Origin: Hydrogenophilales bacterium 16-61-112
GTDB taxonomy: Bacteria; Pseudomonadota; Gammaproteobacteria; Burkholderiales; Thiobacillaceae
DNA length: 64,000 nucleotides
Assembly: GCA_002257045.1 (NCBI GenBank)
Contig: NCHD01000049.1
Coordinates: 1-64,000, forward strand
Direction of reading: 5' to 3'
Shown: positions 1-29,941 of the stretch, one piece after another
Layout of the letters: each line of letters begins with the position of its first letter
How positions within the stretch are numbered: position 1 is the stretch's first letter
Program-made: the position numbers and the translations under genes
Notes under the pieces: generated by a model
The model's database searches: none
Told to the model about the DNA's origin: nothing
The model's input: the letters and a program-made list of their open reading frames with translations, nothing else

Positions 1-288
1 AAGGGCGTCAACCTGGTGTTCGTGAACGCGGACACGGTGGGTTCTGCCCTGATGGGCGGACCGAAGGCGGTTATTCCCAACTCGGTCAAGACCATGCACC
101 TCATCAAGAAGGAAAAGGGCCTGAAGTCCACCAAGATCTATGTTGCACCGAACGATGCGCTGAGCGCAGAGAGCGTGTCTACCCGTCTTGGCATTAGAGG
201 CCTGCCGACCTCGTTCCTGCTGGACGACAAAGGTGTGGTGCAGAAGGTATTCGTAGGTCCGCAAAAGTGGAAAAAGGGCGACATCTGA
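1..288 (+). CDS. Thioredoxin-like (TlpA/redoxin) protein, 3' part only
   Basis: The frame is open from base 1 and ends with TGA at 286-288, so the N-terminal part, including any CxxC motif and signal peptide, lies outside the window. The visible 95 residues read as the second half of a thioredoxin fold: a strand LVFVNAD, a helix region, then GLPTSFLLDDKG, where the Pro before Thr-Ser is the expected cis-proline, followed by a last strand and FVGPQKW, which is common in TlpA-type proteins. It sits 38 bases before the thiocyanate dehydrogenase gene in the same direction, so it probably serves as a periplasmic redox partner or copper/sulfur-handling factor for that cluster. The specific role is inference; SoxW or a ResA-like protein are alternatives. 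Confidence 0.75.
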   Translation, partial: KGVNLVFVNADTVGSALMGGPKAVIPNSVKTMHLIKKEKGLKSTKIYVAPNDALSAESVSTRLGIRGLPTSFLLDDKGVVQKVFVGPQKWKKGDI

Positions 289-326
289 ATCCATCGATTC
301 AGGTCAGAAAACTTAAGGAGAATGCA

Positions 327-1793
327 ATGAGTATTAACAGAAGGCAGTTTATGCAGGGCGCGTTCGCCGCCGGCATTGCCGGAACGACAGGTATGCTTGG
401 CTCAGGCAGCGCGTTTTCGGCTGTACACAACCCCGTTGGCGAAGCGCAGGCTGAGCTGTTCGGAAAATTCAAGGGTAACGTCGTGCTGCTGCCGAGCAAG
501 TACGGTGGCTACGTGCAGGCCATGGACTTGTCCGTGCCCGAGACCCTGGCCTGGTATTCCTATGGTCTGCATGGCATCGACATGCCGATTCCCCACCACA
601 TCGCTGCCATGCCATCGGCCGATCCCTACAAGGGCTTCGACTTCTACCAGACCATGCAGCCGCCGGCATCGCCTTACGTCAACGAGAACTCTCCGGAGTG
701 GCGCAACCGTGGCGACTTCAAGATGTTCAAGATGCGCTACGACGGCAGCGGCAAGCAGAATTCCATTTCAGTGGTCAACGACATCGGTGAAACGACGGGT
801 ATGTCGCTGGGCGTGCACGTCTCGATCGGTGTGGGCGAAAACGCCAACAAGTACGTGGCATTTGCCGATGGTCAGAAGGACATGGTCCTGATTACGGATC
901 TTGGCGACAACCCGAAGATCGTCAAGGCGTTCCGCGCTGACTATGATCCCGTCGCCCGGCAGCTCAACATTAGCCACATCTTCCCCGATGCCACCACTGG
1001 CAAGTTCGACTACGTGGGCCGCAAGGGCATGAAGACGACCCACGAGGCGATGCTGGGCGAAGAATTGATGCCGGCTGACCCCACTGCGGTGTTCGTGGAT
1101 GCCTTCACCTGGCACCCCACGCTGCCGTTCGGCGCCATCCTGATCCGCCGTCTCGGCTGCTGTGCCATCATCGATACCCGTACCTGGGAAGTCGTTGCTC
1201 TGCTGTCGACCGCCAAGGGTTCTCCGGACAACTTCCCGATGGTGAAGCAGACCGGCTTTACCTGGACCTTCGCCGTGCCTTCCGTGCTCACACCTCTGCA
1301 CGAAGCGGGTTTCATCACGAGCGGTGAATACTTTGTGGCCTGCAACAACGTGTTGCAGAACAACATCGCTGTCTACCGTTCGACGGACGAAAATCCGAAC
1401 AAGTGGAAGAAGGAGACCTTTGTCGAGGGCTTTGGCACCAAGTACCTGCCGCTGCACATGGGCAACGTGCCTGATTCCCGTTTCGTCTACTTCACCATGT
1501 GGGCGCGCAAGCCCAATAACGGCTACATCTGCAAAGTGGATGCCAAGACCTGGCAAGTGGTTGCGAAATGGGACACGGGTCCAGATCCGCACACCTGCGA
1601 CTGCACCGTGGACGGCAAGTACATGACCACGGTGTACAGCGGACACCAGGCAGGCCAGTCGGGTCTCGTGGTGATCAACGTCGCAACCGACAAGATCGAG
1701 GCGCGTCTGCCCTGCCCGGGCGGTATGCACGATCACGTCGTGGTTCCTGACAGCTGGGAAGGTTTGAAGTTTTCCCGCAGCACCTCGGTGTAA
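327..1793 (+). CDS. tcdH: Thiocyanate dehydrogenase (copper enzyme, Tat-exported)
   Basis: This 488-residue protein is expected to oxidise thiocyanate to cyanate and sulfur in the periplasm, passing two electrons on. The start at 327 follows a TAAGGAG ribosome site and gives a Tat signal (NRRQFMQG, then a hydrophobic stretch to about residue 32). The rest has the length and repetitive strand pattern of a seven-bladed propeller. Likely trinuclear copper site residues, by eye against what I recall of the Thioalkalivibrio paradoxus enzyme, are Lys58 (SKYGG), His90-His91, His164, Glu240, Asp258, His325, His377 (LPLHMGN), His422 (DPHTCDC) and His468 (GGMHDH); order and spacing fit well. A nitrous-oxide-reductase-like or SelenBP-like propeller is the alternative, but the Lys and His-His pair argue against it. 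It is followed by soxX, soxA and a soxK-like gene, which suggests that the released sulfur is fed to Sox carriers. The symbol is provisional. Confidence 0.85.
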   Translation: MSINRRQFMQGAFAAGIAGTTGMLGSGSAFSAVHNPVGEAQAELFGKFKGNVVLLPSKYGGYVQAMDLSVPETLAWYSYGLHGIDMPIPHHIAAMPSADPYKGFDFYQTMQPPASPYVNENSPEWRNRGDFKMFKMRYDGSGKQNSISVVNDIGETTGMSLGVHVSIGVGENANKYVAFADGQKDMVLITDLGDNPKIVKAFRADYDPVARQLNISHIFPDATTGKFDYVGRKGMKTTHEAMLGEELMPADPTAVFVDAFTWHPTLPFGAILIRRLGCCAIIDTRTWEVVALLSTAKGSPDNFPMVKQTGFTWTFAVPSVLTPLHEAGFITSGEYFVACNNVLQNNIAVYRSTDENPNKWKKETFVEGFGTKYLPLHMGNVPDSRFVYFTMWARKPNNGYICKVDAKTWQVVAKWDTGPDPHTCDCTVDGKYMTTVYSGHQAGQSGLVVINVATDKIEARLPCPGGMHDHVVVPDSWEGLKFSRSTSV

Positions 1794-1861
1794 GGAGGTT
1801 GTCCCGTCGGCAGCGCGTGCTGTCGACGGTTTTTCGTTGCACGTAGCAAAGGAGTATCGAA

Positions 1862-2299
1862 ATGAATTTCAGCATTCTGAATCCGAGCCATTTGGCATAT
1901 GCAACCCGACTACTGGTCGGCATATTCCTGATCGCTTTGTTTAGCCTGCCGACCTTGGCACGGGCTCACAGCAACGAGTATCTGGCAACAGTCAAAGGTG
2001 TCCATGGAGGCATGTTACGCATGGTGGAGATGTATCACTTTGAACTGGTCATGAAAGACGGCGAAGCACACGTATGGGTCACTGACCATGGTGATACGCC
2101 GCAGTCGACCAAGGGAGCAATTGCGACCCTGCGTGTCATCAATGGAAACGACGCTTTCTCGGTAACGCTGAAGCCGACCGGCAGCAACGAGCTGATGATC
2201 AGGGATGCGGGAATAAAACCACGCAAAGGAACGAGATTGGTGCTGACGGTCAGCATGAAGGGTGAAGCGTCGCTGCAGACCCGTTTTTCATTGGACTAG
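1862..2299 (+). CDS. Small periplasmic protein of unknown function
   Basis: 145 residues with a Sec signal peptide (hydrophobic segment about 17-33, probable cleavage after ARA). The mature part starts HSNEYLATVKGVHGG and carries several early His, Met and Glu residues (LRMVEMYHFEL, TDHGD), followed by a beta-rich region. The pattern resembles the small beta domains found alone or at the front of heavy-metal efflux adaptors, so copper binding or delivery to the neighbouring dehydrogenase is possible but not shown. The start is supported by an AAGGAG about 10 bases upstream. It lies 68 bases after the dehydrogenase stop and is probably in the same transcript. Confidence 0.7.
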   Translation: MNFSILNPSHLAYATRLLVGIFLIALFSLPTLARAHSNEYLATVKGVHGGMLRMVEMYHFELVMKDGEAHVWVTDHGDTPQSTKGAIATLRVINGNDAFSVTLKPTGSNELMIRDAGIKPRKGTRLVLTVSMKGEASLQTRFSLD

Positions 2300-2415
2300 C
2301 GGGATCGGCCCCGATAACCCGGATGGCTAGTGTCGTGCCAGCGAAACGGATTTGAGGCACTAGCCGATACGTTAGGGGTGGCCATTGACGAGTTGAATAC
2401 CCAGTGAATGCATTC

Positions 2416-3075
2416 ATGAAGATCCGAGCCGATTTCCTCCTGCTGCCATTGGCAATACAGGTCAGCACAATGCTTGGCTTGATGGCCGTGTTTGCAGCAT
2501 GCACGGTCTATGCTCAGCCGAGCGCAGCCCAGACAGAAAACCGGAACCGCTTGATTGCCACCAATAGTTGTGTTGCATGCGACCTGAAGGGCGTCAGTCT
2601 AGTAGGGCAAAACCTTCTAGGTGCCGATCTGCGGCAGGCGGACTTGTCGCGTGCCGATCTGCGCGGCGCATTTCTTATTGGCGCGAATCTGTCCAAGGCC
2701 CGTTTGGTTGGCGTCGACCTGAGCGGGGCCGTGATAGGCGGGTCGGTAATGAGCGGCGCGGATCTGCAGGGCAGCAATCTGTCCCGGGTGAATGCCAACC
2801 GCACGAGCTTCACTCAGGCCGACCTGGCCGGGGTTGATTTTAGCGACGCCCTGCTGGAACGCGCCGATCTGGAAGGCGCGAATCTGCATGGCGCAAATTT
2901 CAAGAATGCGGATCTATACGAGGCCCGTTTTCTGTTTGCCGGACTGGCGGATACGAATTTTTCAGGCGCGAACCTGCATGCGGCCGATTTTAGCGAGGCA
3001 GATATTTCCGGAATGCGAACCGATGCCAGCACCACCTGCCCGGACTTGAACCCGGGGCCGTGCGTTTTTCAGTAA
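2416..3075 (+). CDS. Exported pentapeptide-repeat protein
   Basis: About 219 residues. A hydrophobic leader (roughly residues 5-35) ends near AQPSAA, so the protein is probably secreted. From about residue 60 to 200 it is built of A(D/N)LxG pentapeptides (for example GADLRQADLSRADL, GANLHGANF), which fold as a right-handed four-sided beta helix. A Cys pair, CVACDL, precedes the repeats, and another Cys pair lies at the C-terminus. A GTG at 2404 in the same frame is an alternative start; neither has a strong ribosome site. Pentapeptide proteins have no single function, and its place between the dehydrogenase and soxX suggests a structural or scaffold role for the cluster, which is inference. 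Confidence 0.8.
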   Translation: MKIRADFLLLPLAIQVSTMLGLMAVFAACTVYAQPSAAQTENRNRLIATNSCVACDLKGVSLVGQNLLGADLRQADLSRADLRGAFLIGANLSKARLVGVDLSGAVIGGSVMSGADLQGSNLSRVNANRTSFTQADLAGVDFSDALLERADLEGANLHGANFKNADLYEARFLFAGLADTNFSGANLHAADFSEADISGMRTDASTTCPDLNPGPCVFQ

Positions 3076-3114
3076 CACCCGGGTGGCGACACCTGGATAC
3101 ACCAAGGAGCAGAC

Positions 3115-3438
3115 ATGTATCAATTTCCCACGAGCATCCGCGCCGCTGGCGCATGCCTGATTCTGATTGCCGGATTTGTGCAGACGGTACGCGCGGATGA
3201 ACCCAAGGCACCCACCGGGCAGGAACTGGCTTTTGACAACAGCAAGGGCAATTGCCTGGCCTGTCATGCCATGCCTGGCGATTCAAAAGCCGTCACTAAC
3301 ACCAACATCGCCCCCCCGCTGATCAGCATGAAGGAACGTTTTCCGGATCGCGCAAAGCTCTACGCCCAACTCTGGGACGCATCAAAAGCCAACGCTGACA
3401 GCCTCATGCCCCCCTTTGGCGTACGGAGAAAGAAATGA
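3115..3438 (+). CDS. soxX: SoxX, monoheme cytochrome c subunit of SoxXA (short C-terminus)
   Basis: 107 residues with a signal peptide ending near VRA. It has one c-type heme site, CLACH, preceded by the SoxX-like stretch TGQELAFDNSKGN, then IAPPLISMKERFPDRAKL and a distal Met in SLMPPFG. SoxX pairs with SoxA to form the thiosulfotransferase that attaches sulfur substrates to the SoxY carrier in the periplasm. SoxX proteins I know continue after MPPFG with about 20 more residues forming a C-terminal helix; here only VRRKK follows, encoded by the ribosome site of soxA, and the stop overlaps the soxA start (ATGA). The start at 3115 has AAGGAG upstream. Confidence 0.9.
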   Translation: MYQFPTSIRAAGACLILIAGFVQTVRADEPKAPTGQELAFDNSKGNCLACHAMPGDSKAVTNTNIAPPLISMKERFPDRAKLYAQLWDASKANADSLMPPFGVRRKK

Positions 3439-4268
3439 AGCAACTGATCTGGATCATGTCCTGCCTGGGATGGCTCGCAGTCGCCGTGAATGCACAGGCT
3501 GCACCGGAAGACCATCGTCTGAAAGTCGTGAAGGCTGTACAGAAAACATATCCCGCTATCAAATTCGAGGATTACATGCATGGCGCACTGGCGTTCAGCC
3601 CTGATGCCAAAGACCAGTACGACGCCATCATGGCTTTCCCGCCTTACGAAGCCGAAATCGAGAAAGGTGCAAAATTGTGGGGTACCCCCTTCAAGAACGG
3701 CAAGCGCTATACGGACTGCTTCCCTCGCGAAGGCAAAAATGTCGCCGGCAATTACCCGTTATTCGATGCCGCAACGAAAAAGGTGGTGACATTTGAAATG
3801 GCGCTCAACCAATGCCGAACGGCCAACGGTGAAGAGCCCTACAAGCACAGCGACATGAATACCATGGGACTATTGACGGCCTATGCCCGCACCTTGTCAG
3901 ACGGCATGAAAATGAATATCAAGGTGGAAGGCAAGGAGGCCCTGGCAGCATTCGAAGCGGGTCAGAAATTCTTTCATCAGCGCCGTGGCCAGCTGAATTT
4001 TTCCTGCGCGGGTTGCCATATCAGTAATGTCGGCAATGTCCTGCGCACCGAATATCTTTCAATGGCACCTGGCCAAGCCACGCACTGGCCGGCATTCCGT
4101 GGTGGCGACTACGCGCTATTCACCTTGCAGCGCCGTTATGCCGCGTGCAACCAGATGGTGCGCTTGGCACCGCTTGAAATCGGTGGAGAGGAATACAACA
4201 ACCTTGAGTACTACCACAGCTATCTGAGCAACGGCCTGCCACTCAAGGCTTCGGTATTCCGGAAATGA
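3435..4268 (+). CDS. soxA: SoxA, L-cysteine S-thiosulfotransferase subunit (monoheme type)
   Basis: 277 residues with a signal peptide (cleavage near AQA). It carries a single heme c motif, CAGCH, around residue 194. The first half keeps the two Cys (DCFPREGK and LNQCR) that in one-heme SoxA proteins form a disulfide in place of the second heme. The essential Cys persulfide ligand is visible in RRYAACNQMVR near residue 239. With SoxX it conjugates thiosulfate or a sulfane sulfur to the swinging-arm Cys of SoxY. It overlaps soxX by 4 bases. No soxYZ, soxB or soxCD is in the window, so the partner carrier must be elsewhere, perhaps just left of base 1. Confidence 0.92.
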   Translation: MKQLIWIMSCLGWLAVAVNAQAAPEDHRLKVVKAVQKTYPAIKFEDYMHGALAFSPDAKDQYDAIMAFPPYEAEIEKGAKLWGTPFKNGKRYTDCFPREGKNVAGNYPLFDAATKKVVTFEMALNQCRTANGEEPYKHSDMNTMGLLTAYARTLSDGMKMNIKVEGKEALAAFEAGQKFFHQRRGQLNFSCAGCHISNVGNVLRTEYLSMAPGQATHWPAFRGGDYALFTLQRRYAACNQMVRLAPLEIGGEEYNNLEYYHSYLSNGLPLKASVFRK

Positions 4269-4315
4269 TCGGGAGCGTGTGGCAAGCATGCCCACTTAAT
4301 TCAAGGAGAACAGGG

Positions 4316-4645
4316 ATGAAGGTAATTCTAAATGCAGTCCAAATGATGGCTGGAGGGATTTTCCTGCTTGGCATCACCGGCCCGGTTGCGCACGCGGCCG
4401 AGAGCGCATCCGGTGCAGCGCTAACAGTCGAAGCGACAAAGGCACTGTCGAATGCGGAATTCCTCGTCGGCATGGCAAAGAACAAGAAATCATTGTGGAC
4501 GACGGCCGCCGGTGCATTGACCCAGGCCCAGGAAGCAGCCAAGAAACAGGACAGTGAGGCCGTAACCAGGTACTCCGCCGTGGCAAGCGAACAGGCGTTT
4601 CTTGGTTTGGCGCAGAGCGGCTATCCACTGACCGGTGCGGATTGA
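4316..4645 (+). CDS. soxK: SoxK/SAXB-like SoxXA-binding protein
   Basis: 109 residues. The start at 4316 follows AAGGAGAA and gives a signal peptide ending near AHA; a longer in-frame opening at 4265 has no such site. The mature protein is short, Ala-rich and helical with the pattern ALSNAEF...LWTTAAGALTQAQEAAKK...ASEQAFLGLAQ, which matches SoxXA-binding proteins (SoxK, also called SAXB) by spacing of Trp, Ala and Gln. That protein binds SoxXA and raises its activity in several chemotrophs. It lies 47 bases after soxA, completing a soxXAK order. The N-terminal part is less typical, so the name is not certain. Confidence 0.7.
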   Translation: MKVILNAVQMMAGGIFLLGITGPVAHAAESASGAALTVEATKALSNAEFLVGMAKNKKSLWTTAAGALTQAQEAAKKQDSEAVTRYSAVASEQAFLGLAQSGYPLTGAD

Positions 4646-4869
4646 TCAGCGTCGACGTTTAACGACGCCATGAGGGTGGCTCTAGGCTGCACGGATTAAT
4701 GGGGCAGAAGGAGCCGGCGATTAGCCTGCTTTGCCAGGAACAGGGGCAGGCGGCTCAAGGTTTTATCGCCTTTAAGGCGAATGAAGATACGTATTAACAC
4801 CTGCAATTTCGATTGATGCACGCCATTTAATCGGGTGCATCTCACAGTTTTGACCCTTGTACTTAAAAA

Positions 4870-5277
4870 ATGAACCACTTGCTTGCGCTGATGCTGGCTT
4901 ACTTCCTTGTTTCCGTGGGGTCTGTCCTGCTTTCAATGAGAACCAACATCAGCTATTTTTTTGGGTTGATGTCACTACTTTATATCTTTATTGCTATTGG
5001 GCTGGTAATGCTTTTTATCAATCTGATGCTAACTATGCCTAAACCCTTGAACCAAGATTATTTTGTCCAGGCTGGAGAAACTGACGCTCTTTCAGCACGC
5101 CAAGAAGGAGGTCATGTCCTTTCTCTCTGGCGGCAATTGGTGTCACCAGACGTGCTTGTCGACTATGCCATGTTGGGGACGCTAGACGCGGAAAAGCGGG
5201 ACGCGCACAGCACGACACACAAGCCAGGATGGAAGTGGTCGCTCAACGAGAGCAGAGACAACGACTGCTCTTGCTAG
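4870..5277 (+). CDS. Hypothetical small membrane protein
   Basis: 135 residues with two hydrophobic segments (about 4-22 and 30-55) and a polar, Cys-ending tail (NDCSC). I do not recognise a family. There is no clear ribosome site before the ATG, and base composition is lower in GC than in neighbouring genes. The 224 bases between soxK and this gene contain a small hairpin (ATCGCCTTTAAGGCGA) but no run of T after it. It could be a real accessory gene or a chance opening; the two membrane segments favour a real one. Confidence 0.4.
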   Translation: MNHLLALMLAYFLVSVGSVLLSMRTNISYFFGLMSLLYIFIAIGLVMLFINLMLTMPKPLNQDYFVQAGETDALSARQEGGHVLSLWRQLVSPDVLVDYAMLGTLDAEKRDAHSTTHKPGWKWSLNESRDNDCSC

Positions 5278-5502
5278 TGCTGCGGACGCAGTAAGTTAAC
5301 AGACCAGTGTTGCCTTAGGCCGAGCAAGAGACGGCCGCCCATCCATCTGAAATTTCGTTTCTGGCCGGCAGTGTGAACCCATCCGGTCCCTCCCATTTCG
5401 GCCCTCCAAGTTGGCTGTGTCGGGTGTCCGGTTTTCGCCAGGGCGGGCGCACCGATTCATGTTCAAGGGGGTCGCGTAAACGCTGGCCAGCACAACGGTC
5501 TG

Positions 5503-5847
5503 TCAGGCCAGTTCCTGCTGGGCGATGACTGCCGGTAGTCGTTTGGGCGACTGGATGCGCAGTTGCTTGTTCACATTCATGCGACCGAAGACGACTTCGA
5601 TGTCGCTGGCGGCCACACCAAACTCTCCTGCCAGAAACCGCACCATGTGGTCGGTGGCGCGTCCGGCGCGGGGCGCTGCGGTGACGCTGACTTTGAGTTG
5701 ATGGCCATAGGGTTTGCCGATGGCGTCCTGCTTGGCGCTGGGCTTGCCGAGGATGTTGAGCACCAGGGTTTCGCCTTCCCAGTGAAAAAACGATTTCGGG
5801 GTCGCGCCAGCGTTGACCGCTGCTTGTTTGCCGGGTTTCTTCTTCAA
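5503..5847 (-). CDS. YggU/UPF0235 (DUF167) family protein
   Basis: 114 residues if translation starts at the TTG at 5847, which overlaps the stop of the upstream gene (TTGA) and suggests coupling; no ATG or GTG is available nearby. Family features are visible: KPSAKQDAIG near the start, VTAAPRAGRATDHMVRFLAGEFG, and VFGRMNVNKQLRI near the end. The family is small and soluble with no established biochemical role. It follows the YkgJ-type gene in the same operon. Bases 5278-5502 on its 3' side hold no gene that I can support. Confidence 0.8.
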   Translation of the reverse strand: MKKKPGKQAAVNAGATPKSFFHWEGETLVLNILGKPSAKQDAIGKPYGHQLKVSVTAAPRAGRATDHMVRFLAGEFGVAASDIEVVFGRMNVNKQLRIQSPKRLPAVIAQQELA

Positions 5848-6197
5848 ACCAGCACCTGCCGCGTGGCAGCGAAATAGCGCTCGATCTGCTGTTCGATGTG
5901 CGGCGCGATCATGACTGCGGGACGTTTTCCGTGTGGGCAGGCCAGTCTGGGCGTGGTGCCGAACAGGCGGCAAATCAGTGGGCGCTCGGTATAGACCTGG
6001 CAGCCTGTTTTGCCGAGGTGGGGGCAGCTGAATTCCGCAAGCGCCGCTGCATGCGCCGCGTCGCTGATGACCGGAAGCCGGGCCATTTCTTCGCTCGAGG
6101 TGGTCACCGGGCCGCAGCAGTCGTGGCAGCCGGGCACGCATTCAAACGCTGGAATGTGGCGGCGCAAAAAACGGATTTGCTGGCTGTTGGGGCTCAT
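5844..6197 (-). CDS. YkgJ-type cysteine cluster protein
   Basis: 117 residues from the ATG at 6197 (MSPNSQQIRF). Cys residues are arranged as CVPGCHDCC near residue 22, with further Cys in FSCPHLGKTGCQVY, LICRLFG and LACPHG, the layout of the YkgJ/CxxCxxCC family that is predicted to bind zinc or an iron-sulfur cluster. The molecular role is unknown in general. The 4-base overlap with the following YggU-type gene implies that the two are translated together. The open frame extends to 6368, but that part is not like the family. Confidence 0.8.
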   Translation of the reverse strand: MSPNSQQIRFLRRHIPAFECVPGCHDCCGPVTTSSEEMARLPVISDAAHAAALAEFSCPHLGKTGCQVYTERPLICRLFGTTPRLACPHGKRPAVMIAPHIEQQIERYFAATRQVLV

Positions 6198-6538
6198 GGA
6201 TGTCTCGATTCGGCCTGCTGGATGGTCGGGCATGGTACGGCCGGGCGGTTCACTCCAAGGTGCGGGTCGACCGGCATACTCGGCAACATCGTCCCCGATT
6301 TCCCGCCCATCAACAAATCGTTCAGCCTCTGCTGCCGCTTGCCCGTTCCCTTTCGCGCCGGGCCGCAAGAAAAATCACGCAAGCCAACTGACGGGGATGC
6401 GGCTGGCGCGCGTCCTCCGGGCCAGCGCGGAGGGACTCGGGCGGCAGGTTTCAGACACCGGTCGCGCTGTGCCCTGTCGGCCGGAACTTGTGTCAGGAGC
6501 GCAGGGTCGACCCCCGTGTCAATTAGAATCGCCCCATC
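6198..6538. other. Intergenic, divergent promoters expected
   Basis: 341 bases between the YkgJ-type gene (leftward) and the efflux operon (rightward). I see no convincing gene. A possible -10 box TAGAAT at about 6523-6528 precedes the efflux gene, but no good -35 goes with it. GC-rich reading frames crossing this stretch look like shadows. Confidence 0.4.
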
Positions 6539-7933
6539 TTGAAAACTTTTCTGATTGTCCTGGGGTCGTGCGTCACGCTGGGTAGCGCGACAGCCGGATC
6601 GATGCCGCTTGATCCGCCTGGACGTCCTGGCGGGTTCTGGCTCATGCCCGATGCGCTGCCGCTGCAGACTGCCACCGCGGCCCCCCAAGCCCTGCGCTTC
6701 GTCAGCCTGGCTGCGCTCACCGATCACGCGCTGCGCACCCGCGCCGAGTCGCGCGCGGCCTGGCTCGGGATCGAGGCCGAGGCGGCACGGCTCGACGCCG
6801 CGAGCGCCGCCAACTGGCCGACGCTGACCGGACAGTTCAGTTTCACCCGCAGCCAGGCGCTGTCGAGCTCCGGCGCCTCGGTGCCGGTACTGCACCGCTA
6901 CGGCCCCAGCCTCGGACTGGCCTATGTGGTGTACGACTTCGGCGCGCGCGCGGCCGGCATCGATGCCCAGCGCTATCAGCTGATCGCCGCGCTGTTGAGC
7001 AATAACCGCACGCTGCAGGACATCGTGACCGGGGTCGAGACCGCCTGGTTTGCGCTGCAGGCTGCGCAGGCGCAAGCCGACGCCCAGACGCAACAGCTGG
7101 CGGCACTCGGCGCCAGTTTCGATGCGGTGGGGGTGCGCGTGCAGAGCGGGCTGGCATCGCGCGCCGACGCCTTGCGCGCCCGCGCCGCGCTGGCCGAAGC
7201 CGAACTGGCCAGCCGTGCCGCCATACGCGACATCGCCAAGGCCGAGGCCCAGCTGAAGCAGGCCGCCGGCATCGCGCAAACGCAGTCGTTGGTGCTCGAC
7301 TGGCCGCATACGCTGCCGCCCGACCTGGATGCCGCCACCCTGCTGGCAGACCTGCTGGCGGAAGCCGAGCGCCAGCGCCCCGACCTGCACGCCCTGCGCG
7401 CCGCCGCCGCGCGCGCGAAAAGCGAGGCTGAGCGCGCACGCGCGGCGCGCTGGCCGAGCCTGTCGCTGGCCGCCAATACCGGCCGCACGCTTTTTCTCGA
7501 AGACGAGCGCTCGCCGTCCAACACCTACAACGTGGGGGTGACGCTTGCCGTTCCTCTGTTCGACGGCGGCCGGCTGGCGGCCGAGGCGCGCGCCGCCGAG
7601 CGCGACGCCGAACGCTTTGCCGCCGCGGCCGATGCGCAGCAGCAGACCGTGGCGCTGGAAGTGGTACAGGCATTTGAGGAAGTGCGTTATGCGCAATCCG
7701 CCCGCGCCGGGATCACGCTGCAGTTCGACAGCGCCGACGAATCGGCGCGCGCGGCCGAAGCGCGCTACAAGGCCGGCTTTGGCAGCCTGCTCGAATGGCT
7801 GAGCGCGCAGGCCGATTTGGCGCGTGCGCGGCAGGCCCAGGCCCAGGCAGACAGCGACTGGCTGGCAGCATTTTCCCGTTTGAATCACGCGCTCGGGCGT
7901 CTGCCCGCCGCGCTTACCGAGAGTCCCTTATGA
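6539..7933 (+). CDS. TolC-type outer membrane efflux protein
   Basis: 464 residues starting at TTG 6539, chosen because it gives a proper signal peptide (MKTFLIVLGSCVTLGSATAGS). The body is made of two related Ala-rich coiled halves with the outer membrane efflux repeat pattern (FGARAAGIDAQRYQ, NVGVTLAVPLFDGGRLAAEARAA), as expected for the trimeric exit duct. It is the first gene of a tolC-adaptor-pump operon and overlaps the next gene by 4 bases. Substrate is unknown; the pump type points to small organic molecules, not metals. Confidence 0.88.
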   Translation: MKTFLIVLGSCVTLGSATAGSMPLDPPGRPGGFWLMPDALPLQTATAAPQALRFVSLAALTDHALRTRAESRAAWLGIEAEAARLDAASAANWPTLTGQFSFTRSQALSSSGASVPVLHRYGPSLGLAYVVYDFGARAAGIDAQRYQLIAALLSNNRTLQDIVTGVETAWFALQAAQAQADAQTQQLAALGASFDAVGVRVQSGLASRADALRARAALAEAELASRAAIRDIAKAEAQLKQAAGIAQTQSLVLDWPHTLPPDLDAATLLADLLAEAERQRPDLHALRAAAARAKSEAERARAARWPSLSLAANTGRTLFLEDERSPSNTYNVGVTLAVPLFDGGRLAAEARAAERDAERFAAAADAQQQTVALEVVQAFEEVRYAQSARAGITLQFDSADESARAAEARYKAGFGSLLEWLSAQADLARARQAQAQADSDWLAAFSRLNHALGRLPAALTESPL

Positions 7934-9078
7934 AAGGTCGCATCGTCGCTGTTGTTGTCGTGCTTGCGCTGGTCGCCGGTGTCGTCTATCGGGCCCAGAC
8001 CCAGGAAGCCGGCGGCGGCTCGCGCGGCCCCGGTGGCGGCGAAGATCGCGCCATCGCGGTGAAAACCGTGGCGGTCGAGGTGCGTGATTTTCCGCGCGTG
8101 ATCGAGTTGCCGGGCACCATCGAGGCGGCGCGCCAGGCCGTCGTCTCGGCGCAGGTCGGCGGCACGCTGCTCAAGCAGTGGGTGCAGGAAGGCGACAGCG
8201 TGCGCGCCGGACAGCCCCTGTTCAGCCTCGACGCGCGCACGGCCGCCACGCGCATCGCGCAAAGCCAGGCGAATCTGGCTGCCGCAGGCGCCGAAACCGC
8301 CGACGCCGAATCCCGCTTGCAGCGCCTGAAGCCGCTGATGGCTTCCGGCTACATCAGCCAGCAGGAATTCGACGACGCAGCGCTGGTGCGCGCAGCCGCC
8401 CGCGCCAAGGCCGCCACCGCGCGCGCCGAACTCGACGCCGCGCGGCTCGACGTCGGCTACGCGACCCTCCGCGCGCCGTTTGCCGGCCGCGTCGGGCGCA
8501 TCACCGTGCGGCCGGGCGACCTGATTCCGGCGGGCGGCGCACTGACCACGCTGGTTGCCGCCGGCGGGCTCGACGTCCGCGCCAGCGTGGCGCAGCAGGA
8601 CTGGCCGGCACTGGCTGCCGCGCGTGCGCAGGGGCCGGTGGCGGCTGAAATATTTCACGATCTGGACGACACGCTGGCCGCGCGCGGCGAGCTGGTCTTT
8701 GTCGACAGCCAGCTCGATGCCGCCAGCGGCGCAGTGCCGATCAAGGTGCGGCTCGCCGACGCGCCGCCCGGGCTGCTGTCCGGCCAGGGCGTGCGCGTGC
8801 GGCTGATTCTCGGCGTCGAGCCCGCTGCGCGCGTGGTGCCGGAAGCCGCACTGCAGCATGCGCAGGACGGCAGCTACGTCTACGTGGTGCGCGGCGGCAA
8901 GGCGGTGATCCAGCCGGTGACGCTGCTGCGCGCGCTCGACGGCGAGCAGGCAGTGAGCGGCGACCTGCGCGCGGGTGAAGCGGTGCTGATCGAGATTCCG
9001 CAGCGGCTGAAAGCGGGCAGCGCGGTCAAGCTGGAAGGCGCACGCCCGAACCCGCCTGCGCGCGAATCCCGCCCATGA
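7930..9078 (+). CDS. RND efflux periplasmic adaptor (membrane fusion protein)
   Basis: 382 residues with an N-terminal membrane anchor (about 4-20). A biotinyl-lipoyl-like segment (VVSAQVGGTLLKQWVQEGDSVRAGQPLF) flanks a helical hairpin, and the beta-barrel part begins near YATLRAPFAGRVGRI. This is the order expected in AcrA/MdtA-type adaptors that connect the inner membrane pump to the TolC channel. It overlaps the genes on both sides by 4 bases, so the three products should be made together. An ORF opening at 7795 is an upstream extension in another gene. Confidence 0.9.
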   Translation: MKGRIVAVVVVLALVAGVVYRAQTQEAGGGSRGPGGGEDRAIAVKTVAVEVRDFPRVIELPGTIEAARQAVVSAQVGGTLLKQWVQEGDSVRAGQPLFSLDARTAATRIAQSQANLAAAGAETADAESRLQRLKPLMASGYISQQEFDDAALVRAAARAKAATARAELDAARLDVGYATLRAPFAGRVGRITVRPGDLIPAGGALTTLVAAGGLDVRASVAQQDWPALAAARAQGPVAAEIFHDLDDTLAARGELVFVDSQLDAASGAVPIKVRLADAPPGLLSGQGVRVRLILGVEPAARVVPEAALQHAQDGSYVYVVRGGKAVIQPVTLLRALDGEQAVSGDLRAGEAVLIEIPQRLKAGSAVKLEGARPNPPARESRP

Positions 9079-12000
9079 ACCTGTCGCGGATTTTCATCGA
9101 GCGCCCGGTCGCCACGCTGATGCTGGTGCTGGCGATTGCGCTGTTCGGCGCGCTCGCCTACCAGCAGTTGCCGGTCAACGACCTGCCGCAGGTCGATTTC
9201 CCCACGCTGCGGGTTTCCGCCAGTCTGCCTGGCGCCAATCCGGAAACCATGGCGAACACGGTCGCCACGCCGCTGGAACGCCAGCTGTCGACGGTGCAGG
9301 GCATCGAGTCGATGAGTTCGAAGTCGAGCCAGGGGTCGACCAACATCACCCTGCAATTCGAACTCGGGCGCGACATCGACGCCGCCGCGCAGGACGTGCA
9401 GACCGCCGTCGCGCAGGCGGCGCGCAATCTGCCGGACGGCATCGACCCGCCCCAGCTGCGCAAGATCAATCCGTCCGACTCGCCCATTCTGTATCTCGCC
9501 CTGTCGGCCGAGCGGCTGCCGCTCACCGAGCTCGACGCCATCGCCGATTCACACGTGGCGCAGCGTTTGTCGACGCTGTCCGGGGTGGCGCAGGTGCTGG
9601 TGTTCGGCTCGCAGAAATACGCGCTCAGGCTGTATCTCGATCCGGCCAAACTGCTGGCGCGCGGACTGACGTTTGCCGACGTCGCGGCGGCGGTGCAGGC
9701 GGCCAACGCCAATCTGCCGTCGGGCACGCTCGACGGCGCCACCCGCGCCTACACAGTGAAGGCGCCGGTCGCGCTGGCCAATGCAAAGGATTTTGGCGAC
9801 ATCGTCGTCGCCTACAAGGACGGCGCTGCGTTGCGGGTACGCGACCTCGGCCGCGCCGAAGATGGCGTCGAGGATGACAAGCGCAAGACCTGGTACAACG
9901 GCACCCGCGCCATCGTGCTGGCGGTGCAGCGCCAGCCGGGCGCTAACACGGTCGAGGTGGCCGAACGCATCCGCGCGATGCTGCCGCAGATCGAGGCCGA
10001 GCTGCCCGACGGGGTGAAGCTGGCGGTGCATTCCGACCGCTCGCGCTTCGTCAAGGATTCGCTGCACGAGGTGAATTTCACTCTGGTGCTGGCGCTGGGG
10101 CTGGTGATCCTCGTCATCTTTGCCTTCCTGCACAACGTGCGCGCCACGCTGATCGCCGCGCTGGTGCTGCCGAGTTCGCTGCTCGGCACCTTCGCCTTCA
10201 TGCACCTGCTCGGCTACAGCATCAACAACCTGTCGCTGATGGCGATCACGCTGGCGATCGGCTTCGTGGTCGACGACGCGGTGGTGGTGATCGAGAACAT
10301 CGCGCGCCATCTCGACATGGGCAAGTCGCGCCTGCAGGCCGCGCTCGACGGCGCGCAGGAAATCGGTTTCACCGTGGTGTCGATGACGCTTTCGCTCGCC
10401 GCGGTATTCCTGCCGATCCTGTTCATGGGCGGCATGATCGGCCGGCTGTTCCAGGAGTTCGCCGTTTCCATCGGCGTCGCGGTGCTTCTGTCGGGGCTGA
10501 TCGCGCTCACGCTTACGCCCATGTTGTGCGCGCGCTGGCTGAGCCACGAGCCGATCAACAATTCCGTGTCGCGCGGGTTCGACAACACCTTCAACCGCTT
10601 CCGCGACTGGTACGGCGTCACCCTGCGCGCGTCGATGCGCCATCGCGCCGGCATGCTGCTGCTGTCGCTGGCGGTGCTGGTGGCGATGGGCTGGCTGGCA
10701 GGGCAGGTCAAGCAGGGCTTCATTCCGCGCGTTGATTCCGGCATGGTTTTCGCCAGCGTGCAGTATCCCGAAGGCATCCCGTTCGACGAACTGTCGCGGC
10801 GGCAGCAGCAGCTCGCCGCCATCGTCCAGGCGCATCCGGCGGTCGAGGGCCTGATGTCGTCGGCCGGCCAGGGCGGCGGCGGCGTCAGCGGCGGCAACGT
10901 CGGCCGGCTGGTGATCCGCCTCACGCCGCGCGACACGCGCAACAGCGCCGACGAGATCATCGACGAGCTGCGTAAAACGACACGCAAGGTGAGCGGCGTG
11001 AACGTGATGCTGCAGAATCCGGCATCGATCAATGTCGGTGCGCTGGCGTCGTCGAGCGATTACCAGATCACGCTGACCTCGGGGAATTTCGCGTCCTTGA
11101 AGCAGGCATCGGCCGTGGTCGAAAAACGCCTCGGCGAGGTGCCGTTGATCGAGGACGTGAGCAGCGACCTCGAACTGCGCAATCCCGAACTGGGCGTGGT
11201 GCTCGACCCGCTCGAAGCGGCACGGCTCGGCATCGACGCGCGCCAGGTGCAGCAAACGCTGTACGACGCGCTGGGCGGCCGCCGCATCAGCGAAATCTAC
11301 GGCACCAGCGACCAGTACACGGTCAGCCTGAAGGCGCTGCCCGCGCGTCGGGCGGCCTGACGCGGCTCGATGCGGTGGCGCGCGTCGAGGCCGGCGTCGG
11401 TCCGGTCGCGGTCAACCACTATGGCCAGCAGCCTGCAGTCACGCTGTCGTTCAATCTGGCGGCCGGCGCATCGCTCAACACGGCGCTGGCGCAGGCGCTC
11501 GCCGCCGCCAACGAAGTGCTGCCTGCCGACGTCACTGCGCAGCTGGCCGGCTCGGCACAGAAATTTCAGGAATCGACCGTCACGCTGCCCCTGCTGCTGC
11601 TGTTCACCGTCCTGGTGATTTACATGGTGCTGGCGGTGCTGTACGAACACCTCGGGCATCCGCTTACCATTCTCACCGCGCTGCCGCTGGCCGGGTTCGG
11701 CGCACTGCTGGTGCTGCTGCTGGCCGACGAGGAACTCAACATCTTCAGCTTCGTCGGCATCATCCTGCTGGTCGGGCTGGTGAAGAAAAACGGCATCATG
11801 ATGATCGACTTCGCGCTGACCCGGCAGCGCGCCGGCATGAACGCCGAGGACGCCATCGTCGAGGCCAGCCTGGTGCGGCTGCGGCCGATCATGATGACCA
11901 CCTTCGCCGCCATCGTCGCCACGCTGCCGATCGCCATCGGCTTCGGCACGGGCGGCGAGGCGCGGCGTCCGCTCGGCATCGCCGTGGTCGGCGGCCTGTT

Positions 12001-27069: not shown

Positions 27070-27408
27070 TCATTTCCGCCCAACAGGATGCTCGGCAATA
27101 AACTGGCGCAGGGCAGCGTTCACGCGAGTCTGCCAACCCTTGCCTGTGGCCTTGAAGGTTTCCAGCAGGTCTGCGTCAAGGCGAATCGCGGTAAACACCT
27201 TGGTTGCGTCGGCCTTTGGGCGACCACGCGGGCGCTTAGCGACCAGCGCGGCGTACATTTCCGGCGGCAGCACCTCGCTTGCGTGCTTTGCCTTGGCAAA
27301 CCACTCCGCATCCAGCTCGCGGCTATCCGGGTCAGCCGCAATGCCAGCGTTGATGGCAGCATCCTCTTCAGGGGTAGGGCTGAGGTGCCCGACTTTAAGT
27401 TTCGGCAT
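27070..27408 (-). CDS. brnA: BrnA antitoxin
   Basis: 112 residues from ATG 27408 (MPKLKVGHLSPTPEED). The C-terminal half is the DNA-binding part: KVFTAIRLDADLLETFKATGKGWQTRVNAALRQF, a ribbon-helix-helix. It overlaps the end of brnT by 14 bases, the normal toxin-first order of this system. It is expected to bind BrnT and repress the promoter at 27669-27696. Confidence 0.88.
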   Translation of the reverse strand: MPKLKVGHLSPTPEEDAAINAGIAADPDSRELDAEWFAKAKHASEVLPPEMYAALVAKRPRGRPKADATKVFTAIRLDADLLETFKATGKGWQTRVNAALRQFIAEHPVGRK

Positions 27409-27661
27409 ATCGTTTTTCCTCTCGCTTGTTGGCCTTGCGCAGGCTGATGACGCGAACGGCATCACTGCGACGGCAGTAGATCATCACGTGCAAACGGTCG
27501 CCGATGTAGCCAGTGGCCTCGAATCGAGGTTCGGCGTACTTCATGCGTGTGTCTTCACGAACTATCGCGGTTTCCCACTCGAAGCCTTCGGCATCAGTCA
27601 GTGACAAACCGTGTTTGTCGAGGTTGCTTTCATCTTTGGCGGGATCGAATTCGTAGTTCAC
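27395..27661 (-). CDS. brnT: BrnT toxin (ribonuclease)
   Basis: 88 residues from the GTG at 27661. Family features are EFDPAKDESNLDKHGLSL near the start, a central EPRFEATGYIGDRLHVMIY and the basic end ISLRKANKREEKRYAE. BrnT is a RelE-fold mRNA-cleaving toxin that blocks translation. The open frame extends to 27706, but the extra residues cross the promoter and are not like the family. The start codon lies next to the predicted transcription start. Confidence 0.88.
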   Translation of the reverse strand: MNYEFDPAKDESNLDKHGLSLTDAEGFEWETAIVREDTRMKYAEPRFEATGYIGDRLHVMIYCRRSDAVRVISLRKANKREEKRYAET

Positions 27662-27668
27662 GCGATTT

Positions 27669-27696
27669 ATTGTATAAACAAAAATAACCGTGTCAA
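27669..27696 (-). promoter_or_regulatory. Sigma70-type promoter of brnTA
   Basis: Reading the minus strand, TTGACA (27696-27691), 16 bases and TACAAT (27674-27669) make a strong promoter. Transcription would begin at about 27662, practically on the GTG of brnT, so the message may be leaderless. A BrnA operator is expected to overlap it, but I see no clear palindrome. Confidence 0.65.
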
Positions 27697-27824
27697 GTAG
27701 CAACACTTCTGAGTGCTATTGCCCGAAACGAAGTCTGTCGCCTGACAAAATGCGGCACATCGTGACCTGAAGCGGCGGTGCAAATCCCGTTGCGCACGGC
27801 AGATTGATCGTGCGCCACGCCAGT

Positions 27825-27914: not shown

Positions 27915-27974
27915 CGTTAATGTGCCAGACACAGCGAACGCGTGTTCACATTCATCAACTTAAGGAGCTTTAAA

Positions 27975-28433
27975 ATGGAAATGAAAATGATGGCGCGTAA
28001 AGCCCAACAAGGTTTCACCCTGATCGAATTGATGATCGTGGTGGCGATTATCGGTATTTTGGCGGCGATTGCGATTCCGCAGTATCAGGATTATGTGACG
28101 CGTGCCAAGTGGCAAGATGTTATTACTTCACTTGAGTCCACCAAGTTGGCGACTGCCGAATGTATGCAGCAGAACGCTGGTGATGCCACGTTGTGCGACA
28201 CCAATGGAGAGATTGGCTCGACCATGCCGACCTCTGTCCAAGGGGCTACTATCACCCGCGGTACATTCAATAATACTGGTACTGCAACGTTCAGCATGGC
28301 TGGTGGCGCACCTTTGGCAAATTGCACCGTGACCATGACGGGTAACGGCGGACCTGGTGCCGCAAATATGACCTGGGCTTTTGCTAACACTGGAACCAGC
28401 TGCGGTAAAAACAAAACCGGTGTGGGCACCTAA
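27975..28433 (+). CDS. pilA: Type IV major pilin-like protein
   Basis: 152 residues. The start at 27975 has TAAGGAG upstream and gives a short basic leader followed by the prepilin cleavage site [11 protein letters not shown], then the hydrophobic helix [16 protein letters not shown]. Glu5 of the mature protein is present. Two Cys near the C-terminus (NCTVTM and GTSCGKNK) likely form the D-region disulfide, along with an earlier pair (AECMQQ, ATLCDT). The protein ends TGVGT, and a predicted oligosaccharyltransferase gene follows, so glycosylation of the C-terminal Thr is possible. The fibre would serve twitching, adhesion or DNA uptake. Confidence 0.93.
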
Positions 28434-28459
28434 TTAAATACCGGTAACTAAAAATCAGA

Positions 28460-28483
28460 CCCCTCCTAATGGAGGGGTTTTTT
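28460..28483 (+). terminator. Terminator after the pilin gene
   Basis: CCCCTCC, loop TAA(T), GGAGGGG and six T form a strong intrinsic terminator 27 bases after the pilin stop. It would keep most transcripts monocistronic, with some read-through into the downstream transferase gene. Confidence 0.9.
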
Positions 28484-28504
28484 ATTGGGTAACGGCACTT
28501 GAAA

Positions 28505-29941
28505 ATGACGAGTCACGAAGTCTCTGCAGCTCCATGGGAGTTTAGCCCTCTGTTATTCATGACAGGACTGGCCTTGTTCGCTGGGATTGCAATCGATTTT
28601 GTGCCGGAGTTGATCTGGCACGATCAGCAGCGCATGGAACAGATCGTTCTGTTGCTGATCGCAGCATTAGCTCTCGCCACCATCTGGCGCAAGAGCTTAT
28701 TGGTCACGCTGGCTAGATTGCCAACTCCGATTCGTTTGGCACTGCCTTTAGGCTTCACACTTGGCTGTACGTCTGCCGTTCTCGCTGCCTACCCGCGCTT
28801 TGCTCTGTTGGAATGGGGGACGCTGTTGCTGCTGCTTGGCGTGGCATTCGTTCTCGCTGAGCAAACGCGGCGTGGCGGTGTGGGCTTTGACACTTGGGCA
28901 ATACGGCTGGTGGTGGCGCTGGCTGCGGTTATCGCGCTGAAAATCATGACCGGCTATGTGGCCACGATCGTGGAGGGAGCTCGGCTGAATACGCTGCAGT
29001 TATTTGAAGGCACGTTCTCCAATCGCCGGGTATTTGGACAGGTGGCTAGTATGGCCATCCCCTTGCTGGCGTATCCGCTGTTAAGTACAGAAATGCCACG
29101 AGTTCGACGCTGGAGTCTGTTTGCGTTGTTGGCGGTGTGGTGGATGCTGGTAATTGTGTCGGGTACGCGCGGCACTTGGATGGCACTGGCGGTGGCGGCT
29201 GTGGTGTTGGCTGCGGTTGCGTGGCGAGCCTCCTCGGGTTGGCTGAGAATGCAGGCATGGGCGTTCGGGGCGGGAGCGTTGCTGTTCGCAATTTTGTTTG
29301 TGGGTTTGCCCGCCTGGCTTGAGTTGGATGCGTCGCTAGAAAATCGTTTTGTTAATCCGGCGACACTGAGCGGACGTGGGGAATTATGGGCGCTAGCGTG
29401 GGGTGAAATTCAGGCCCATCCTTGGCTGGGTATTGGTCCGATGCACTTGGCGTCCATTCACAATGGCTTCGGCGCACATCCGCATAATGCAGTTTTGCAA
29501 CTGGCCGCAGAATGGGGTGTGCCCGCAGCATTGGCCTTTGTTGCGCCAGTCGCCGCAGGTTTGTTCTATCTGCTGCTGAGGATACGGCGGCAGGAAACCT
29601 CGGTTAACGCGCTGCTGATATGCCTCACTGCCAGTTTGCTGGCGGCGAGCGCGCAATCCATGGTGGATGGGGTTATTGTCATCGCTTATACACAGACTTG
29701 GCTGGTTTTAATCGCAGGTTGGGTATTGGGTGTGTATTTCCGGGATGGTGCCCGGGCGCCCGTCATTTCTGATTTCCGCATGATGCGCTTAGGTGTACCC
29801 GTTTTATCCTTGTTCGCGTTTGCCGGGTTGTTGAATGGTGTGCTCCCCGAGATTTTTAACCGTGCTGAAGTGACACAAGCTTATGCCGACGCAGGGAAGT
29901 TGATTCCGCCGAGATATTGGGGCGTGGGCTGGATTCCGTAA
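28505..29941 (+). CDS. Pilin O-oligosaccharyltransferase-like (PglL/TfpO, Wzy_C family)
   Basis: 478 residues from ATG 28505 (a TTG two codons earlier is possible) with about 11-12 membrane segments. The large periplasmic loop has the O-antigen ligase-like motif around GRGELWALAWGEIQAHPWLGIGPM and AHPHNAVLQLAAEWG; the conserved His follows a short loop as in PglL and TfpO. These enzymes move a lipid-linked glycan onto pilin. Position directly after the pilin gene is the arrangement seen for TfpO in group I Pseudomonas pili. Lower GC than neighbours may mean transfer of the pilin region as a unit. Confidence 0.85.
   Translation: MTSHEVSAAPWEFSPLLFMTGLALFAGIAIDFVPELIWHDQQRMEQIVLLLIAALALATIWRKSLLVTLARLPTPIRLALPLGFTLGCTSAVLAAYPRFALLEWGTLLLLLGVAFVLAEQTRRGGVGFDTWAIRLVVALAAVIALKIMTGYVATIVEGARLNTLQLFEGTFSNRRVFGQVASMAIPLLAYPLLSTEMPRVRRWSLFALLAVWWMLVIVSGTRGTWMALAVAAVVLAAVAWRASSGWLRMQAWAFGAGALLFAILFVGLPAWLELDASLENRFVNPATLSGRGELWALAWGEIQAHPWLGIGPMHLASIHNGFGAHPHNAVLQLAAEWGVPAALAFVAPVAAGLFYLLLRIRRQETSVNALLICLTASLLAASAQSMVDGVIVIAYTQTWLVLIAGWVLGVYFRDGARAPVISDFRMMRLGVPVLSLFAFAGLLNGVLPEIFNRAEVTQAYADAGKLIPPRYWGVGWIP

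Follow-up and report, generated by a model that had tools for sequence, protein, structure and literature searches.

A gene block at the start of a 64,000-nucleotide stretch of DNA from Hydrogenophilales bacterium 16-61-112 (hereafter the window; bases 1–64,000 of the 74,503-bp contig C184) joins a gene for thiocyanate dehydrogenase (TcDH) to a second soxXA pair, separate from the main sox cluster of the genome. The enzyme is a member of the TcDH family, and what is new is the second, clade-specific SoxXA that is tied to it. We consider it highly probable that the block works as one functional unit with the enzyme, namely as a thiocyanate-oxidation operon of the neutrophilic TcDH clade, and a hand-over of sulfur from TcDH to the linked SoxXA would be its likely meaning. 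No description of a TcDH-linked soxXAK set was found in the literature on TcDH, on SoxXA and thiocyanate, and on thiocyanate use by Thiobacillus denitrificans (mostly open-access texts, without supplements).

The block encodes a thiocyanate dehydrogenase

The assembly from which the window derives comprises 2.9 Mb in 206 contigs and is 94% complete. All seven genes of the block (positions 1–4645) lie on the + strand, as an earlier note on this DNA had described, and are spaced by short gaps or 4-bp overlaps. The first encodes a redoxin/thioredoxin-fold protein (1–288), which loses its 5′ end at the contig edge (window base 1) and retains the C-terminal 95 residues; a full-length copy from the T. 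denitrificans-like locus L049 matches Redoxin at 4e-11. There follow, at intervals of 38, 68, 104 and 39 bp, the 488-residue TcDH (327–1793), a small periplasmic protein (1862–2299), a secreted pentapeptide-repeat protein (2404–3075; PF00805, 1.2e-37) and soxX (3115–3438), while soxX and soxA (3435–4268), as well as soxA and a gene for a SoxK/SAXB-like protein (4265–4645), overlap by 4 bp each.

The window TcDH reaches no family cut-off in family searches; in phmmer comparisons it matches the TcDH structures of P. methylotrophicum (pmTcDH, 5.2e-81) and Thioalkalivibrio paradoxus (tpTcDH, 1.2e-69). A figure legend of PMC6504805 lists 13 active-site residues for tpTcDH, and all of them are retained in the alignment (K58, H90, H91, Q111, H164, E240, D258, H325, H377, H422, H468, D469 and R484 in window numbering), and the claim that Lys58 corresponds to Lys103 of the T. 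paradoxus enzyme, with the other copper-site residues in order, was thereby confirmed. An AlphaFold2 model (mean pLDDT 85.6), whose underlying alignment contained a Thioalkalivibrio TcDH, adopts the seven-bladed propeller fold of 5F75. In a Foldseek search, the top 20 of the 50 rows listed were all TcDH chains (TMq 0.84–0.86, TMt 0.87–0.90) and the remaining 30 were other propellers with TM of at most 0.56. A Tat-type N-terminus is suggested by an RR pair seen by eye, with a PF10518 score of 15.3 bits that lies below the cut-off of 22.7. Together with the clade placement described below, sequence and model make a strong case for the predicted TcDH identity, and we infer that the protein very probably oxidizes thiocyanate, in the predicted reaction to cyanate and sulfur at a centre of three copper ions.

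The block and its SoxA type are conserved across TcDH-bearing Thiobacillus

Full-length TcDH was found in 13 of 117 genomes of the family, all within the genus Thiobacillus (56 genomes), and two further family genomes gave weak partial matches only. These 13 genomes hold 14 full-length copies, a count that leaves aside a partial second TcDH in one genome (G061; 198 residues at a contig end). The order TcDH, small protein, pentapeptide protein, soxX, soxA, SoxK-like protein is kept in 14/14 copies, with the block of one genome split over two contig ends. Such recurrence, without exception among the 13 genomes, is not due to chance, and the neighbourhood search suggested earlier thus recovered the same block in every one of them. 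The carriers include a genome of 2,909,809 bp (G053), which has the size of the T. denitrificans type genome, as well as T. thioparus DSM 505. In three strain pairs, the block genes are under purifying selection, with dN/dS of 0.04–0.06 for TcDH, 0.07–0.10 for soxA, 0.13–0.16 for soxX (one of the three values saturated) and 0.15–0.29 for the rest.

The linked SoxA follows TcDH closely. Its type, at 74% identity or more, occurs in the same 13 genomes, and in the other 43 genomes of the genus it appears only as a 54-residue fragment, identical to the window SoxA, in one incomplete genome (G076); all other full-length SoxA of the genus are at most 62% identical to it. A search at 1e-60 of 399 evenly drawn genomes from the order likewise found this type only within the genus, the remaining SoxA reaching at most 64% and one fragment 69%. 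In the SoxA tree, from which five SoxA-family loci of the genus (L018–L022) were omitted since they gave no tblastn match to the linked SoxA at 1e-20, the linked proteins form one 14-row clade outside the 27 main-SoxA rows of the genus (two main genes being present twice). A recent duplication of the genus's own soxA was therefore rejected as their origin. The earlier note's tie between TcDH and a separate SoxXA thus holds across the genus.

The linked SoxXAK is a second set beside a soxXYZAB cluster

The window SoxA passes TIGR04484 (205.1 bits, cut-off 110) and carries one CxxCH haem site (CAGCH) and a QRRYAAC motif, whose cysteine we take to be the active-site cysteine of SoxA. The CxxCH and QRRYxxC signatures are retained in 14/14 linked SoxA proteins, as is CxxCH in 14/14 linked SoxX proteins. 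The monoheme SoxX of the window scores 60.6 bits against TIGR04485 (cut-off 61) and lacks its C-terminus: 86 bp present in the near-identical strain L058 are absent at 3420/3421, which replaces the last 20 residues by five others and a stop. The other 13 linked soxX copies run to a normal end, and the truncation reflects either an assembly error or a real deletion. The third protein matches NF052674 at 17.9 bits, below the cut-off of 95, so that its name as SoxK-like relies on position and conservation, with a match at the same place in all 14 block copies.

A separate contig of the same genome (C165) encodes another SoxA (218.5 bits) beside soxX, soxY, soxZ and soxB; the latter four were read from translations, and soxY, soxZ and soxB used as queries matched sox genes elsewhere. 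The earlier note had singled out a second complete sox cluster as a circumstance that could make the block's soxXA superfluous; a soxXYZAB cluster does exist and makes the window soxXA a second copy, and it also means that the carrier and the hydrolase are available in trans to this second SoxXA. In Thiobacillus Sulfur_bin.2, a soxY match was seen at a contig edge downstream of the linked soxXAK (L057, 1–282).

TcDH and sox genes are also neighbours in some other lineages

Relatives of the window TcDH were gathered by a pattern-based scan, of which the best 80 of 105 were kept. In a residue check of 79 relatives, all 25 scorable members of the window clade (L065–L089) retained 13/13 active-site residues, as did 8 relatives outside it, including a Thioalkalivibrio protein (L097); L090 is incomplete, and L092, L098 and L108 were not scored there but are included in the tree. 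The partial L091 was left out of both analyses, and L090, with its interrupted frame, out of the tree. A further 42 relatives, mostly from Reyranella and Xanthobacteraceae-type alphaproteobacteria, carry Gln at the place of the copper-site His482 (L096, L100–L107, L109–L113, L115–L118 and L121–L144), the same change as in the solved mutants 6sji and 8yu5.

In the TcDH tree (a quick method without bootstrap, with a long-branch warning), the window protein falls in a 26-row clade with SH-aLRT 100, together with Thiohalobacter, Guyparkeria SCN-R1, Paracoccus thiocyanatus, Rhodoplanes, Afipia and others, separate from the Thioalkalivibrio/Pelomicrobium clade. It is about 80% identical within its own clade and 34% to the Thioalkalivibrio clade. 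One scan of viral contigs yielded no relative, and among plasmids two Methylocella tundrae records matched at 33% identity; no sox-annotated gene lies within 12 kb in the one of these records that was looked at.

Outside Thiobacillus, 9 of 15 clade loci (L074–L087 and L090) have sox genes no more than 20 kb from TcDH and on one contig with it. At L076, the small-protein gene is followed at once by soxX, soxY and soxZ, no pentapeptide gene intervening. P. thiocyanatus has soxXA only, 8.3 kb from TcDH and without soxYZ nearby; a SoxY that exceeds the cut-off and a further SoxA are encoded on a different contig. Rhodoplanes carries a divergent soxXYZA at 1.4 kb, Afipia and a close relative soxXYZA at 11.8 kb, Amaricoccus soxXYZAB at 10.5 kb, and Pseudaminobacter soxX at 6.7 kb, at a contig end; in a metagenome-assembled genome (L086) the sox genes lie about 15.6 kb away, and in Paracoccus sp. 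S-4012 (L090) about 18 kb away. In this last strain the TcDH frame (10,001–11,456 of its locus) is interrupted, as soxB appears to be, and soxA appears partial, which suggests decay of the pathway. TcDH is not linked to sox in Thiohalobacter (0.6 Mb apart), Guyparkeria and L078 (on other contigs) or L083 (no SoxY), and the contigs of L075 and L085, below 10 kb, are too short to show linkage. With the same queries, no sox match was found in 53 fetched stretches around TcDH of other clades (L092–L144), versus 4/15 at the same flank; this contrast is only suggestive, as Afipia and its relative represent one lineage and the sox content of the 53 genomes was not checked.

Companion proteins of TcDH

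The small protein has a His as its first residue after the predicted signal in 22/22 homologues; the cleavage point was picked through an A-H pattern and is to that extent circular, yet the pattern fits in every homologue. Its model (pLDDT 94) is an Ig-like sandwich. Most of its closest structural neighbours in VIA-align bind copper in the periplasm, namely CrdA (Z 10.9) and FetP, P19 and FtrA (10.5–8.9); a DUF4426 protein reaches 9.9 and unrelated rows about 8. Superposition on CrdA, FetP and P19 gave a root-mean-square deviation of 2.4–2.7 over 93–96 residues at 5–10% identity, and all Foldseek E-values were above 0.001. The metal-handling role put forward in the earlier note is therefore consistent with the fold, which is where its support lies.

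The pentapeptide protein carries the same four cysteines, a CxxC near the N-terminus and two C-terminal ones, in 20/20 homologues. It had been proposed as a scaffold, a role that we find unsupported: its gene stands beside TcDH in gamma- and alphaproteobacteria where no soxXAK adjoins, and the protein thus belongs with TcDH and not with SoxXA. The small protein and the redoxin also accompany TcDH in gamma- and alphaproteobacteria. The set is not complete at all clade loci: L076, L083, L085, L086 and L090 gave no match for the pentapeptide gene. The redoxin domain of the homologues, some of them cut at contig edges, contains no cysteine, those present sitting in the N-terminal signal region (in L084 near the likely cleavage point). 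We accordingly rejected the redoxin as a persulfide carrier, a result that bears on the published proposal of redoxin as sulfur acceptor (PMC6504805).

Probable regulation of the block

Upstream of the block, the T. denitrificans-like locus L049 and the near-identical L058 carry a histidine kinase, a sigma-54 regulator, a DUF302 protein, a Cu/Zn superoxide dismutase, a BNR protein, a second redoxin, a TonB receptor, TonB, ExbB and ExbD; most of these were scored in L049, the kinase and the second redoxin in L058, and ExbD was named from its sequence. The T. thioparus group (L072, L073, L088 and L089) shares the kinase, regulator, DUF302 and dismutase genes upstream, but nothing there matched the TonB set. 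Of 21 testable loci, 14 have a sigma-54-like site (GG and GC fixed, 8 or more of the 10 consensus bases; 0.01–0.21 expected per region from simple shuffles) 106 to 173 bases ahead of the redoxin gene, among them 9/9 in Thiobacillus. A TcDH cluster with a kinase and a sigma-54 regulator is upregulated on thiocyanate in Thioalkalivibrio thiocyanoxidans (PMC5744179). Judging from these relatives, the sigma-54-like promoter and the kinase–regulator pair probably control the block.

Between TcDH and the small-protein gene lies a terminator-like hairpin with a T tail (1804–1829, + strand; 11-bp stem, −20.2 kcal/mol), which may in part uncouple the genes downstream from TcDH. Of 24 loci checked, 10 have a strong hairpin just after TcDH, Thiohalobacter and Guyparkeria among them, and in Thiobacillus the figure is 5 of 12. 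Overall, positions 1–6500 showed no excess of terminators (6 found vs 6.9 in shuffles) or of sigma-70-like sites (2 vs 2.4).

Metabolic setting

The alternative enzyme, thiocyanate hydrolase, was followed through its ScnC-type subunit (NHase_alpha, PF02979, a model that also covers nitrile hydratases). It was found in 13 of the 56 genus genomes and 4 of the 13 with TcDH, and neither in the window's own genome nor in G053; of 14 genomes behind other loci it occurs in two, T. thioparus and Pseudaminobacter, and was not found in those of P. thiocyanatus, Thiohalobacter or Guyparkeria. T. denitrificans and P. thiocyanatus grow with thiocyanate as electron donor (PMC5328954), and since the subunit type is absent in G053 and P. 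thiocyanatus, this use is not explained by thiocyanate hydrolase. A TcDH of this clade would account for the enzyme, and the linked SoxXA for where the sulfur might go. Cyanase is present in 32 of the 56 genomes, including the window's own, and was dismissed as a specific companion of TcDH for want of a clear association (9/13 TcDH genomes vs 23/43 others).

Thiocyanate is a pollutant, and the block could serve as a marker for reactors that degrade it. One metatranscriptome dominated by T. denitrificans-like bacteria is reported to contain cyanase transcripts and no TcDH reads (PMC6172326), perhaps because the window clade went unrecognised.

Proposed mechanism and alternatives

In the mechanism we propose, TcDH would oxidize thiocyanate, and the small protein, through its N-terminal His, would handle copper and help to supply the TcDH centre. 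The second SoxXA and its SoxK-like partner would take up the sulfur by way of the SoxA active-site cysteine and the haems and conjugate it to SoxYZ, with SoxYZ and SoxB supplied by the separate soxXYZAB cluster, while electrons from TcDH and from the conjugation would pass to the cytochrome c pool. Sulfur loading by the linked SoxXAK is in our estimate an even proposition, and we give about the same weight to the scheme as a whole, in which TcDH and SoxXA load the SoxYZ of the main cluster, as the best explanation. The earlier note's coupling of TcDH to a dedicated Sox loader accordingly stands as regards the enzyme and the conserved SoxXA tie, and the sulfur hand-over is its conjectural part. 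A more speculative extension, which we regard as doubtful though worth stating, is that the TcDH-linked SoxXAK is a distinct type using sulfane sulfur from TcDH, as persulfide or bound S0, and not thiosulfate, loading SoxYZ directly without a free intermediate; the coupling would have arisen more than once, P. thiocyanatus having a soxXA of its own, and the four-cysteine pentapeptide protein, not the redoxin, would be a possible intermediate acceptor.

The proteome of Thiohalobacter FOKN1 on thiocyanate, in which TcDH and SoxYZA were abundant (PMC6934394), speaks for the proposed mechanism, whereas several observations weigh against it. Thiohalobacter and Guyparkeria oxidize thiocyanate without sox genes near TcDH, and for FOKN1 the purified TcDH is reported to have been inactive and SoxX not to have been detected in the proteome (PMC6934394). 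The linked SoxXA may be redundant with the soxXYZAB cluster, soxX is truncated in the window assembly, and the SoxK-like protein falls short of its family cut-off of 95 bits. As regards regulation, the hairpin at 1804–1829 may lower transcription downstream of TcDH, and the window's own regulator and promoter, located past the end of the contig, can be judged only by way of relatives. Of these, Thiohalobacter (L074) and the related L075 possess the regulator, yet neither shows a sigma-54-like site that reaches the threshold.

These points leave room for other readings of the block. The linked SoxXA might mainly accept electrons, TcDH giving two electrons to the SoxX and SoxA haems while the sulfur leaves otherwise, which we judge somewhat unlikely. 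It is in keeping with SoxX and SoxA being the only CxxCH proteins among the seven block genes, with flavocytochrome c genes of the Thioalkalivibrio cluster being proposed as TcDH acceptors (PMC5744179) and with cytochrome c552 being reported as the Thioalkalivibrio acceptor (PMC9456337); an electron carrier, however, would have no need of the SoxA active-site cysteine kept in 14/14, TcDH elsewhere lies near soxYZ carrier genes too (L076, Rhodoplanes, Amaricoccus), and clade members without nearby sox genes require another acceptor in any case. Less probable still is that the second SoxXAK is an ordinary thiosulfate system under the same control, acting on thiosulfate formed secondarily from sulfur and sulfite. 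The window protein does fit the thiosulfate SoxA model, and in FOKN1 SoxYZA were abundant on thiocyanate and thiosulfate formation was suggested by the authors, although no free thiosulfate intermediate was detected there (PMC6934394); the main soxXYZAB could already do this task, and the near-confinement of the linked SoxA type to TcDH genomes would be left unexplained.

Lastly, a different substrate for the TcDH-like protein, which might for example be a copper enzyme akin to nitrous oxide reductase, is very improbable. A weak NCBIfam match to clade III lactonase-type nitrous oxide reductase (NF052460) reaches 12.7 bits against a cut-off of 700, and a single nitrous oxide reductase chain among the 50 Foldseek rows listed has a TM of 0.43 versus 0.84–0.90 for TcDH, and the clade III reading was rejected on these values; the window protein moreover carries all 13 TcDH residues and groups with thiocyanate oxidizers in the tree.

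Other features of the window

Downstream of the block, a small membrane-type protein found in part of the genus is encoded at 4870–5277 (+ strand). An outer-membrane efflux gene (6539–7933) and an adaptor-like frame stand ahead of an RND efflux gene (9075–11,360, + strand) that covers only positions 2–766 of the 1021 of ACR_tran, its C-terminal quarter being absent from the frame. Two small overlapping frames at 27,070–27,706 (− strand) resemble a BrnT/BrnA toxin–antitoxin pair. At 27,942–29,941 (+ strand), where G+C is lower, a type IV pilin-like gene, recognised by eye, precedes one for a member of the O-antigen ligase (Wzy_C) family, and a 933-residue frame at 30,211–33,012 (− strand) appears by eye to combine dihydrolipoyl acyltransferase and dihydrolipoamide dehydrogenase, a possible fusion whose frame end looks irregular.

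Comparison with known systems

With the SoxXA(K) of thiosulfate oxidation, the window proteins share the haem sites of SoxA and SoxX, the SoxA cysteine and the SoxA family score; they differ in their separate clade, in the lack of soxYZB in the block and in the low-scoring SoxK-like protein. The accessible part of the T. thioparus genome paper describes only a soxXYZAB operon (PMC5248467), and cus genes of T. thioparus and T. denitrificans are mentioned in PMC6504805.

The cluster of Thioalkalivibrio paradoxus and T. thiocyanoxidans (5F75; PMC5744179, PMC5328954) resembles the window system in active-site residues and fold, in the sigma-54 regulator and kinase, and in its BNR-repeat and outer-membrane receptor genes, but its enzymes are 33–34% identical and form a separate clade, and copCD and flavocytochrome c take the place of soxXAK. 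For the thiocyanate desulfurase of Afipia_64_1782 (PMC8061750), a TcDH-type protein of 489 residues, 5F75 served as the modelling template; L082, from another Afipia, belongs to the window clade, differing in that its soxXYZA is not adjacent.

The closest likeness is to the loci of Thiohalobacter thiocyanaticus HRh1 and Guyparkeria SCN-R1 (PMC6504805), whose TcDH is 80–81% identical to that of the window. There, too, a redoxin gene directly precedes TcDH, the small protein and the pentapeptide gene follow it, and a histidine kinase and sigma-54 regulator lie upstream, as in the window's relatives. In contrast to the window, these loci have no soxXAK, and the redoxin was proposed there as sulfur acceptor whereas its domain here is devoid of cysteine. 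Redoxin, TcDH, small protein and pentapeptide protein thus form the common core, to which soxXAK is a Thiobacillus addition.

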